Shown here piece after piece: positions 17,736-20,572 of a DNA stretch of 31,073 nucleotides. The first letter of the stretch is position 1; each line of letters opens with the position of its first letter. Source of the stretch: a virus; the IMG/VR virus record IMGVR_UViG_3300044675_002014, positions 1-31,073 of that record; one strand, 5' to 3'. Below the pieces are notes generated by a model. It did no database searches. It worked only from the letters and a program-made list of their open reading frames with translations, and was not told the origin of the DNA. Both the position numbers and the translations under genes were made by a program.

Positions 17736-18428
17736 TTAAAATAGTTGAGTTTGAATTGATGGTTTATAGCTTGCATCGTATCGTTTATTTTCACCTTTTG
17801 GATACGGCTTTATTTCAAATAACTTTTCGCTCATAATCTTGATTTTTGTTTTTGAATTTGATAAAACATAAACGTATCGATGCTTTGCCTCTCTTTTGAC
17901 TTGATAAAGTTGATCTCCATATTTTTCCTTTAATTTATTGACTCTGTCAGGCTGAAATGCGAACTCATCCATCAAAGTCCTAGAATGTAAATGCTCAAAT
18001 CCTTTTAACTTCCAATCCATTTGAGTATGACTTTCGCCTGTATAAATAAAATTGCAAGCTTGATAAATGTATCCAGTATGCCCTACTGATTTATCAGCGT
18101 ATGAAACAATGATCAAAGGTTTTGGTAAAAGATTAAATGATTGAGATATAAAAAAGGAATTGGCATTTTTATCCAAATTATCATTTGTGCAAAGCCTGTT
18201 AAGTTCATAAACTAAGTCCATGTAATTATTCCCAAATAAGGATTTTTTCATATTCAAAGGTATTGCATTTCCAAAGGTTAAAACCCCAACTAAAATACCA
18301 TTTTCAAAAAGTCCAAAAGAATAAGAAAAAGAGGTTTTCCTTTTTAAGTAGTGTTTTTTCAAAAGCCATTCACTACACAAAAAAGAATCAATTGATTTGA
18401 CTTGATATTTTTCTTTTATCGATGTCAT
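17736..18428 (-). CDS. mom: Mom-like DNA adenine-modifying enzyme
   Basis: The 230-residue protein carries the segments of the Mom family: YELNRLC (residues 74-80), FFISQSF (92-98), IVSYADKSVGHTGYIYQACNF (107-127) and the C-terminal AKHRYVYVL (181-189) with KPYPK (207-211). In phage Mu, Mom adds a carbamoyl-type group to adenine in DNA and protects it from restriction enzymes; the fold is GNAT-acetyltransferase-like. It is placed between the helicase and a small membrane protein, and it is AT-richer than the virion genes. The upstream frame is the helicase, whose stop lies 9 bases before this start. I see no companion similar to Mu Com. The family call is good, but the exact modification is unknown. 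Confidence 0.8.
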   Translation of the reverse strand: MTSIKEKYQVKSIDSFLCSEWLLKKHYLKRKTSFSYSFGLFENGILVGVLTFGNAIPLNMKKSLFGNNYMDLVYELNRLCTNDNLDKNANSFFISQSFNLLPKPLIIVSYADKSVGHTGYIYQACNFIYTGESHTQMDWKLKGFEHLHSRTLMDEFAFQPDRVNKLKEKYGDQLYQVKREAKHRYVYVLSNSKTKIKIMSEKLFEIKPYPKGENKRYDASYKPSIQTQLF

Positions 18429-18437
18429 TTTAGTTTC

Positions 18438-19499
18438 TTAAAATGGTGCGTTTTTTATTTCTTCTTGATCGGGGAAAATGAAGTCATCAATGCCCGAGGT
18501 GGTAAACTTTTCAACCCTTGTCTCGGGTACCTTACCAATCACCGCATTCTCGAAATAATCGAAACCATCCTTGCCGATGTACCTATTCCTTTTGCGGTTG
18601 AAGTCGATGGTAATTTCAAAGGGTATCCCGACCAACTTCTGCTTTTTAATCTTGTCGGTCTTGATGATTACTGTGGTATCGTTTGGATCGGTAGCCCTAT
18701 TCGGCCTCCATACGCTGATTGTATTATCCGTACTATCCGCAAACGTGCCACCCCCTTTGATTTGATATAGGCTTGGGGGTGGATAGTTTCCATCCTTCTC
18801 TTTCCTCGGTGTGGTTTGGTGCATTACCAAGTGATAAGAGACGTTATTCTTGCGGGTAAAATTTATCCTGTCCATCATGAAGCGGGAAGCGTACAAATGC
18901 TCGGGCTCTCCCGCACTCATCTCGTGGCGAATCTTGATGTAGGGGTCTACGATTACCGCCTTCACATCCTTCTCCCAAACCAAGTACTCAAAGACGCTTT
19001 CGATTTGCTCAATCCTAAAATCGGGCATCTTATCCGTTTCGGGGTACACGAAAAAGAAGTTATCCTTAACCATGTCAAATGCTCTCAAGTATTCCTCCTC
19101 ATTGACGTCAAAATTCTTGTACGCCCTGTCGGTACTTTTTCCAAGGATCGTGTGAATGATGTCATCAAAAAACTCATCGGGCGGGTAGTTCTCGGGGGAG
19201 AAAAAGGCAAACTTCCACCCCTCATTTATTGCCTTCAAGACACATAAGAAAATTAGGAACTGAGACTTGCCCTCGTTATTGTATCCAGTCCAAAGGTTAA
19301 ACTCTCCCGCCTTCCAAGACCACATCTTATTTTGTATACCTCCGCTTATAATGTGGTCGATATCTCGGACGTATGTCTTGCTCCCAGCCTCCTTGCCTTT
19401 TCTAAAGTTGGCAAGCATGGAGTTTCTTTGTCCCGCAAATGTCTTGATACTAGCCTCGCAAAAATCGAGGTCAAATACCTTATCGCTTTTCTTTTTCAT
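18438..19499 (-). CDS. DnaB-like replicative helicase / RecA-fold ATPase
   Basis: The 353-residue protein has Walker A GYNNEGKS (residues 72-79), Walker B AVIVD (181-185), a sensor segment LVMHQT (224-229) and an arginine/glycine loop KGGGTFADSTDN (248-259), in the order of the DnaB-type helicase C-terminal domain. There is no separate DnaB N-terminal domain, as in short phage helicases. It would unwind the fork loaded by the DUF6291-type protein two genes upstream. The start overlaps the upstream gene stop by 4 bases (ATGA). No primase gene is recognised in the window, so host DnaG is the probable partner. Confidence 0.85.
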   Translation of the reverse strand: MKKKSDKVFDLDFCEASIKTFAGQRNSMLANFRKGKEAGSKTYVRDIDHIISGGIQNKMWSWKAGEFNLWTGYNNEGKSQFLIFLCVLKAINEGWKFAFFSPENYPPDEFFDDIIHTILGKSTDRAYKNFDVNEEEYLRAFDMVKDNFFFVYPETDKMPDFRIEQIESVFEYLVWEKDVKAVIVDPYIKIRHEMSAGEPEHLYASRFMMDRINFTRKNNVSYHLVMHQTTPRKEKDGNYPPPSLYQIKGGGTFADSTDNTISVWRPNRATDPNDTTVIIKTDKIKKQKLVGIPFEITIDFNRKRNRYIGKDGFDYFENAVIGKVPETRVEKFTTSGIDDFIFPDQEEIKNAPF

Positions 19500-19810
19500 T
19501 CTCCGAACAATTTATCAATGCTATCCTTTAGTTCTTGGTAATTCCCTTGTCTTTTCGCAAGGTCTTTAAACCATTGCTTCTCAAATTGATTTCTCACCCT
19601 TACCTCTTCTTGCAATGCCAAGGTAATACCTTTTATCTCATAATCTTGCAAATTTATTATATTGATATATTTCTTTTGCAAGGCATTCATGCGCTTAAGG
19701 TTCTGTTCAATCAATGCCCAATTTTTAGTTTGTACCGCCAAGACTAGCATTCCCCACAAATCTCGGTTTAGATCATTCAAGTCTTTGATTGTTTGCTTTT
19801 GCTTTTCCAT
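19496..19810 (-). CDS. Small coiled-coil protein of the replication operon
   Basis: The ATG at 19810 overlaps the TAA of the DUF6291-type gene by one base (TAATG) and is preferred over an upstream TTG at 19819. The 104-residue product begins MEKQKQTIKDLNDLNRDLWG and is almost entirely helical, charged and rich in Gln and Lys. It is flanked by an initiator-like and a helicase gene, so a helicase-loading or initiator-accessory role is likely. There is no recognised domain. Confidence 0.7.
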   Translation of the reverse strand: MEKQKQTIKDLNDLNRDLWGMLVLAVQTKNWALIEQNLKRMNALQKKYINIINLQDYEIKGITLALQEEVRVRNQFEKQWFKDLAKRQGNYQELKDSIDKLFGE

Positions 19811-20469
19811 TACCACCAATTGTCTTGAAGTGTACTTTTTGCGTATGTGGTCTCTCCCGCTTTTTTCTCGGGTATCGGGTTACCTCTTTTTATCCATCTA
19901 ACAAAGTGTTGCTTTGCATCTTTCTCATTTACCTTCAAGGTTCCTATTAGGATTAACTCTTGTCTAAAATCATTCAAGTGATTTCTAACTTGCTCAATAC
20001 TTACTTTATTATTTAGTGCTATTCCTTCAAGCCAAATATTGCTTTTCCATAATTCTCTGAATATTTGGTTATGGCTTTCCTCATTTACCTCCAAGGTTTT
20101 TTCTGTCTCTGTATATATATCATTTACATTTACATTAACATTATCATTTACAGCTAGGTTTGCTACAAAATTTGTAGCGGTGCTAGGTTTTGCTAGGACT
20201 TCGCTAGCATTGCTAGCTTTTGCTAGACCTCCCTTCCTTCCAGCCTCTGCCCTCTGCTGCTTCTTTTCATCCCACAATACCAAGTCTCTTTTCAATTGAG
20301 TCTTGATTGGTAAAAAAGCAACCTTCAAAAGCAAGTCTTCCGTGCTTGGGTTTTCATCATTGACGTATGCAAAGATGTGCTTGATAAGTTTGCCAGCCGT
20401 GACGTCATCGAGTTCATCAAATACCTCTCGCTGGTCTGTGTAAAGTACAAAGGATTTTTTTCCTTTCAT
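19810..20469 (-). CDS. DUF6291-type phage replication initiator-like protein
   Basis: The 219-residue protein begins MKGKKSFVLYTDQREVFDEL, followed by the motif GKLIKHIFAYVNDENPSTED, the signature of DUF6291 proteins in Bacteroidota phage replication modules. Residues 80-130 are low-complexity, with an Asn/Val run (NDNVNVNVND) that resembles linkers of phage replication proteins. The C-terminal part (about 150-200) is a helical, DnaD-like region with RNHLNDFRQELIL and HFVRWIKRGN. The region that encodes the linker also carries tandem GCTAG repeats, a dyad and a very AT-rich tract, as in the lambda O gene. A regulatory leader with two hairpins and a -7 promoter element lies upstream. The function is inferred from family and context. 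Confidence 0.82.
   Translation of the reverse strand: MKGKKSFVLYTDQREVFDELDDVTAGKLIKHIFAYVNDENPSTEDLLLKVAFLPIKTQLKRDLVLWDEKKQQRAEAGRKGGLAKASNASEVLAKPSTATNFVANLAVNDNVNVNVNDIYTETEKTLEVNEESHNQIFRELWKSNIWLEGIALNNKVSIEQVRNHLNDFRQELILIGTLKVNEKDAKQHFVRWIKRGNPIPEKKAGETTYAKSTLQDNWW
20111..20226. other. Candidate replication origin inside the initiator gene
   Basis: On the plus strand an AT-rich tract (20111-20150, six G/C in 40) is followed by a perfect inverted repeat GCTACAAA-a-TTTGTAGC (20162-20178). Five GCTAG iterons then start at 20182, 20192, 20203, 20212 and 20222, spaced 10, 11, 9 and 10 bases, and one more lies at 20153. This is about one copy per helical turn. The arrangement of DNA-unwinding-like tract, dyad and iterons inside an initiator-like gene resembles the lambda origin in the O gene. 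No experiment supports it yet. Confidence 0.5.
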
Positions 20470-20473
20470 GGTA

Positions 20474-20566
20474 GTAAATAAAAAAGCCCAACAGGTAGGA
20501 GTCTGTCGGGCTAGGTTTAGTAAACCTTTATGAAATCATTTTTGGCTCCTACCTCAAAAATGATTT
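20474..20566 (-). promoter_or_regulatory. Two-hairpin 5' leader of the replication operon
   Basis: In transcription order: hairpin A, a perfect 11-bp stem (20556-20566 with 20533-20543) and 12-base loop; a 15-base palindrome AGGTTTA-G-TAAACCT (20513-20527); hairpin B, a 10-position stem with one mismatch (20503-20512 with 20485-20494) and 8-base loop, followed by TTTTTTATTTA. Nine bases around loop A (20546-20554) are perfectly complementary to nine around loop B (20493-20501), so a kissing or alternative structure is possible. The start codon is at 20469. Confidence 0.6.
20481..20512 (-). terminator. Terminator-like hairpin B before the DUF6291 gene
   Basis: The stem AGCCC(A)ACAG / CTGTCGGGCT (20485-20494 with 20503-20512) is followed on the minus strand by TTTTTTATTTA. 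It would stop transcripts of the upstream early operon, or attenuate the leader, about 15 bases ahead of the DUF6291 start. It can be both a terminator and part of the two-hairpin leader. Confidence 0.7.
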
Positions 20567-20572
20567 AATATT

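Follow-up and report, generated by a model that had tools for sequence, protein, structure and literature searches.

Replication origins located inside initiator genes are already known from several phages and plasmids. In phage lambda the origin lies in gene O, where the repeats that serve as initiator sites stand beside an AT-rich tract within the gene; its four iterons are each an 18-bp inverted repeat (PMC6022878). The Rep boxes of pSK41, a plasmid of the RepA_N type, occupy the center of rep and code for a linker of dispensable protein sequence, and in the hybrid pPR9 the N-terminal domain and the origin were exchanged while the C-terminal domain was kept (PMC5703833). The SPP1 initiator binds direct repeats within its own gene (oriL in gene 38), which is accompanied by an AT-rich unwinding element; SPP1 also encodes a helicase loader and a helicase and has a second origin, oriR (PMC6316719). 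The P1 oriL lies in repL; this initiator gene contains an AT-rich region that is required, and synonymous changes in that region reduce replication (PMC9948254). The locus described here involves other protein families and a proposed modular recognition tail.

The window, i.e., the whole stretch of DNA that was analyzed, is IMG/VR virus record IMGVR_UViG_3300044675_002014 (31,073 bases). Its putative initiator gene (19810-20469, minus strand) encodes a 219-residue protein, P0001, composed of a DUF6291 domain (residues 6-84), a disordered linker (approximately residues 89-129) and a DUF7833 domain (residues 139-194; 19888-20055, minus strand), the last presumed by inference to contact the replisome. 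P0001 matched PF19808 (DUF6291; E 2.3e-23) with 82.6 bits against a membership cut-off of 27.2, and PF25200 (DUF7833; E 1.9e-9). A scan of the whole Pfam library gave no other family above cut-off, which sets P0001 apart from the lambda O family and, in the absence of a PF06970 match, from RepA_N proteins, whose N-terminal winged helix (pfam06970) is unrelated. The initiators of SPP1 and P1 (RepL family) also belong to families other than that of P0001. An AlphaFold2 model predicted an N-terminal domain of three helices, a disordered linker and a helical C-terminal part. The third helix (residues 46-88) ends in the tail motif RAEAGRKGGLAK (residues 73-84; 20218-20253, minus strand), the segment proposed to read the iterons. 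Searching solved structures by sequence produced no convincing match for P0001, and Foldseek found no match in the PDB at E <= 0.001 for the initiator model. VIA-align returned only weak rows (best Z of 5.3; homeodomain-like rows near Z 3.5 over residues 15-63), which we treated as no result.

A word search located six copies of the putative iteron core GCTAG on the plus strand, all within 74 bases and five of them 9-11 bases apart. The first copy (20153-20157) adjoins the AT-rich tract and is followed by those at 20182-20186, 20192-20196, 20203-20208, 20212-20217 and 20222-20226. The copies at 20203 and 20212 are palindromic (GCTAGC), and the last overlaps the codons of the tail motif. A perfect dyad, GCTACAAA-A-TTTGTAGC (20162-20178, no strand), places the variant cores GCTAC (20162) and GTAGC (20174) face to face in slots of the same approximately 10-bp spacing; variant cores GCTAC/GTAGC are also present in relatives. 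The window has only two other perfect 8-bp dyads with a loop of 0-3. Across the whole window GCTAG was not enriched (24 matches vs. 35.9 expected), so the clustering of the copies is the signal, and no 6-mer in the window clusters more densely than CTAGCA in the linker. The G+C content of positions 20111-20150 was exactly 0.15, a value as low as that being found in 0.26% of all 40-bp windows and in at least eight places.

A preliminary description of the window had placed here a lambda-like origin with a 15% G+C tract, six GCTAG copies and a perfect 8+1+8 dyad. All three features were confirmed on recomputation, exactly where they had been placed. The likeness to lambda holds for a proposed origin inside the initiator gene and for repeats that adjoin an AT-rich tract, and needs correction in other respects. 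The cores are 5-6 bp long and lie about one helical turn apart (9-11 bp), unlike the 18-bp iterons of lambda, and there is only one 17-bp dyad; in Pfam, P0001 does not match the lambda O family; and the 6-bp units of the AT-rich tract form an ordered repeat array of their own. As in RepA_N plasmids, the repeats occupy the linker-coding center of the initiator gene. With SPP1 oriL the locus shares repeats inside the initiator gene and an AT-rich tract, although the repeats differ; with P1 oriL it shares AT-rich DNA within the initiator gene.

The preliminary description had also judged the coincidence of these origin hallmarks hard to explain by coding alone. This was supported when codons were redrawn synonymously: the window linker contains six CTAGC words, compared with a mean of 0.56 and a maximum of 4 among 20,000 redraws, none of which reached six. 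When the gene's own codons were permuted among synonymous positions, the mean rose to 1.40 and two of 20,000 permutations reached six. The six copies fall in two codon registers (2, 1, 2, 1, 1, 2 modulo 3) and translate as Leu-Ala or X-Ser; the absent third register would place a TAG stop in frame. The GCTAG copies are DNA-level features and are not accounted for by protein coding.

Five scans of viral contigs and phage records yielded 282 distinct DUF6291 genes; thinning by tail and linker similarity left 153 representatives, 152 of which had testable linkers. A scan of one genome per species with the first alignment had given a single relative, a Woesebacteria metagenome-assembled genome. 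A contig of a Woesebacteria metagenome-assembled genome carries a DUF6291 gene with a 401-residue product (L097, 2501-3703) and greatly expanded linker repeats in which EANASNSKQI recurs. In the representative linkers, synonymous redraws gave 302 out-of-frame exact 6-mer repeats where 1839 were observed, a six-fold excess, and 259 inverted 6-mer repeats where 577 were observed, a two-fold excess. Linkers were individually significant in 118 of 152 genes and the gene ends were at background (N-terminal part, 8/152; C-terminal part, 10/149). Repeat words occupied every register that makes no stop: AACCCA was distributed 61/45/34 among the three registers, translated as Asn-Pro, Lys-Pro or Thr-Gln, and CTAGCA was distributed 24/23/0. 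In genes with GGxxK-class tails, Leu was encoded by CTA in 184/208 linker codons vs. 229/1220 elsewhere, and Ser by AGC in 157/240 vs. 202/751. Selection on coding-DNA repeats as DNA is a criterion for origins inside initiator genes, and it is met here. Conservation of the repeats beyond synonymous freedom, proposed earlier as a check, thus proved favorable. The case named as refuting, relatives that keep the protein and lose the repeats, gave a different picture: relatives keep the repeats or swap the set when the tail motif changes.

One rival explanation is that the region encodes merely a low-complexity protein linker, whose residues repeat for protein reasons or through slippage and give DNA words by accident. 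The linker is predicted to be disordered, such linkers do repeat, and some of the repeats (1416 in the 152 representative linkers) are in frame. However, out-of-frame and inverted repeats exceed the synonymous redraws, a single word encodes NP, KP or TQ depending on its register, and codon usage is skewed exactly where the word requires it. We consider this explanation very unlikely.

The AT-rich tract (20111-20152, no strand) consists of the hexamers GTAAAT/GATAAT/GTTAAT on the coding strand, encodes VNDNVNVNVND and is proposed to be the unwinding element. A low-complexity tract followed the words in 150 of 153 representatives, with a median of 27% G+C, a consensus hexamer of G[AT][TA]A[AGC]T and typically a peptide in which two residues alternate, e.g., VNVN or DSDS. 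Tract codons were strongly biased relative to codons elsewhere (Ser AGT, 87 vs. 18%; Asn AAT, 93 vs. 58%; Asp GAT, 98 vs. 64%), and therefore the DNA, not only the protein, has been kept. Melting at this tract is inferred, and what recognizes the hexamer has not been identified.

The repeated word is phage-specific and tracks a motif of about 12 residues, the tail, directly before the linker. GGLAK and GGKQK tails paired with GCTAG (CTAGC), GGRP(K) with AACCCA, KSGExR with CGAAGC, NLKRW with ATCGCA, KRW with CGCAT/TGCGA, and SAExR with GTTNAAC-type words. At least two AACCCA words were present in 73 of 80 GGRP genes and in none of the 202 others; at least two CTAGC words were present in 79 of 81 GGxxK genes and in 4 of 201 others. 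The tail classes were defined after the data had been inspected. Earlier tail rules misfiled some genes (e.g., the GGVAK tails of L029 and L031); the counts of at least two words use the corrected rules, and the class-by-word matrix uses the earlier ones. The pairing has misfits: seven of the 80 GGRP genes lacked AACCCA, and only 17 of 31 KSGExR genes had two CGAAGC words. Three genes with GGRPK tails and no AACCCA (L221, L243, and L235) have linkers with KAKKANA-type repeats and differ before the motif, with SEAGKLGGRP instead of NNGLKGGRP. For lambda, a family-wide pairing of tail and word was not found in the open-access literature searched, and the abstract of PMC9948254, on P1, does not describe a pairing between a tail and a word specific to the phage.

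Genes whose N-terminal bodies are nearly identical have exchanged tail and word jointly. Parsimony on a tree of the N-terminal bodies required 68 changes of tail class. Sign tests on independent pairs gave almost none in the wrong direction (e.g., 5 with, 0 against and 2 ties); single-class phylogenetic sign tests fell short of 0.05 on their own, with too few supported pairs. L052 and L087 have a common N-terminal body and C-terminal domain and differ in tail and linker, with GCTAG and CGTTAACG words, respectively. L193 and L239 are identical in their C-terminal halves and 90% identical in their upstream DNA, and their tails and words differ. L111 and L136 are alike up to NKIN and then continue with GGRPK and AACCC in one and IAKRWNK and TACCA in the other. 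A further candidate swap, L283/L305, was dropped as an artifact of the tail rules, both genes sharing tail and words. The unit exchanged in DUF6291 genes, about 12 tail residues and the linker with the body kept, is much smaller than that in pPR9.

The same pairing was found in initiators that are labeled DUF4373-type by annotation. Profile comparison of the DUF4373-type and DUF6291 proteins gave an alignment confined to the 24-residue tail. DUF4373-type linkers contained 1103 out-of-frame repeats vs. 245 expected and were significant in 43 of 64 genes, vs. 1 of 64 for the control. G-A..RW tails occurred with ATAGCA in 8/8 DUF6291 and 17/24 DUF4373-type genes, G-M..RW tails with ATAACA in 2/2 and 3/6, (A/S)A..RW tails with ATGCGAA-type words in 7/13 and 15/23, and GGxxK tails with CTAGC in 79/81 and 2/2. 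Equal tails thus go with equal words in both initiator families.

The pairing of tail and word is a correlation; physical contact by the tail is inferred. The words could instead be sites of another protein, a host factor or another phage protein, with the tail linked to them by inheritance only. Correlation is not contact, and there are no DNA-binding data for the tail. Against this explanation, the words differ among close relatives and move with the tail when parts of the gene are exchanged, and initiators whose N-terminal domain is of another type show identical tail-word pairs, which leaves it with very little probability.

The preliminary description had proposed a minimum of cumulative GC skew near 20150 as a check. 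The raw curve of the window had no minimum near this position and failed the check; the detrended curve upheld it, with a minimum at 20293, at a distance of 103 bases from the linker. The skew minimum lay near the linker in 24 records (median of 0.106 of the possible distance; KS p of 7e-10) and the maximum showed no comparable closeness. Gene orientation is a confounder here, and the majority of the records may be incomplete.

Two genes downstream of the initiator gene is a RecA-type ATPase (18438-19499, minus strand) related to phage primase/helicases and DnaB-like helicases (phrog_5482, E 3.2e-32; phrog_239, E 2e-28; phrog_19, E 4.8e-9). The intervening 107-residue open reading frame (19496-19819, minus strand) had no confident family in Pfam or PHROG. 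Helicase, primase or helicase-loader genes also followed the initiator gene in several annotated relatives. Separately, a DnaA-like helix-turn-helix protein is annotated in two phages with this initiator (L014, 617-1012; L426, 17612-18049). Elsewhere in the window, a gene for a Mom-like DNA modification protein (17736-18428, minus strand; PF25680, E 1.7e-39; phrog_1384) sits in a stretch of about 32% G+C.

A third rival is that the repeats form a self-binding array for autoregulation or partition rather than an origin. The array is a likely target of its own protein, plasmid iteron arrays also regulate expression, and a replication assay is absent. This explanation does not account for the DNA-selected hexamer tract that nearly always follows the words, the nearby GC-skew minimum or the downstream helicase or loader genes, and in lambda, SPP1, and pSK41 a locus built in this way has been proven to act as an origin (PMC6022878; PMC6316719; PMC5703833). 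We regard it as unlikely.

The leader of the initiator gene (20479-20570, minus strand) contains a first hairpin with loop AGGTAGGAG and, directly before the start codon, a terminator-like hairpin with loop CTCCTACCT. The two loops are perfectly complementary and possibly kiss (fold z of -4.84). Among hairpin-bearing relatives, 22 of 40 had at least 7 complementary nucleotides between the upstream region and their own terminator loop, vs. 2.6% of cross-phage pairs. An Rfam search of the whole window gave no match. Control of the initiator by attenuation is possible.

The reading that we prefer to these rivals is that the region 20111-20226 is a replication origin contained in the DNA that encodes the linker of its own initiator, which we consider very likely (probability of about 0.85), with binding and origin activity inferred. 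Every check of this preliminary proposal that could be made computationally supported it. The computational support comprises DNA-level selection, tail-word pairing across phages and two initiator families, and cassette exchange, together with the hexamer tract, the GC-skew minimum and the gene neighborhood. In the proposed mechanism, the DUF6291 domain would assemble several copies of the protein, and the tail RAEAGRKGGLAK, the basic end of the long third helix, would bind GCTA(G/C) cores, spaced at about one helical turn, in the DNA encoding the 30 residues that follow. The complex so formed would then melt the adjoining AT-rich hexamer tract and the C-terminal part would recruit the helicase encoded downstream. 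Binding by the tail, oligomerization, melting and helicase loading are all inferred; the open-access literature searched held no binding, footprint or replication experiment for the DUF6291 family and no paper tying DUF6291 or DUF4373 to replication. A short tail motif that predicts a word across hundreds of phages and two initiator families was likewise not found in that literature, which cannot prove it unreported.

A bolder reading, which we consider likely, is that a short tail, located where the N-terminal domain ends, in many phage initiators reads a word spelled in the next approximately 30 codons, in any stop-free register, and that tail and word form one mobile cassette, even between unrelated N-terminal domains. 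If this is true, origins and their specificity would be readable from the protein sequence in very many phages. For the DUF6291 family, the analysis gives a function, with binding and origin activity inferred, to proteins annotated as unknown and explains their hypervariable, oddly repetitive linkers. It predicts the position and specificity of the origin for hundreds of phages from sequence alone, and the many natural tail-word variants make protein-DNA recognition and origin compatibility directly testable.
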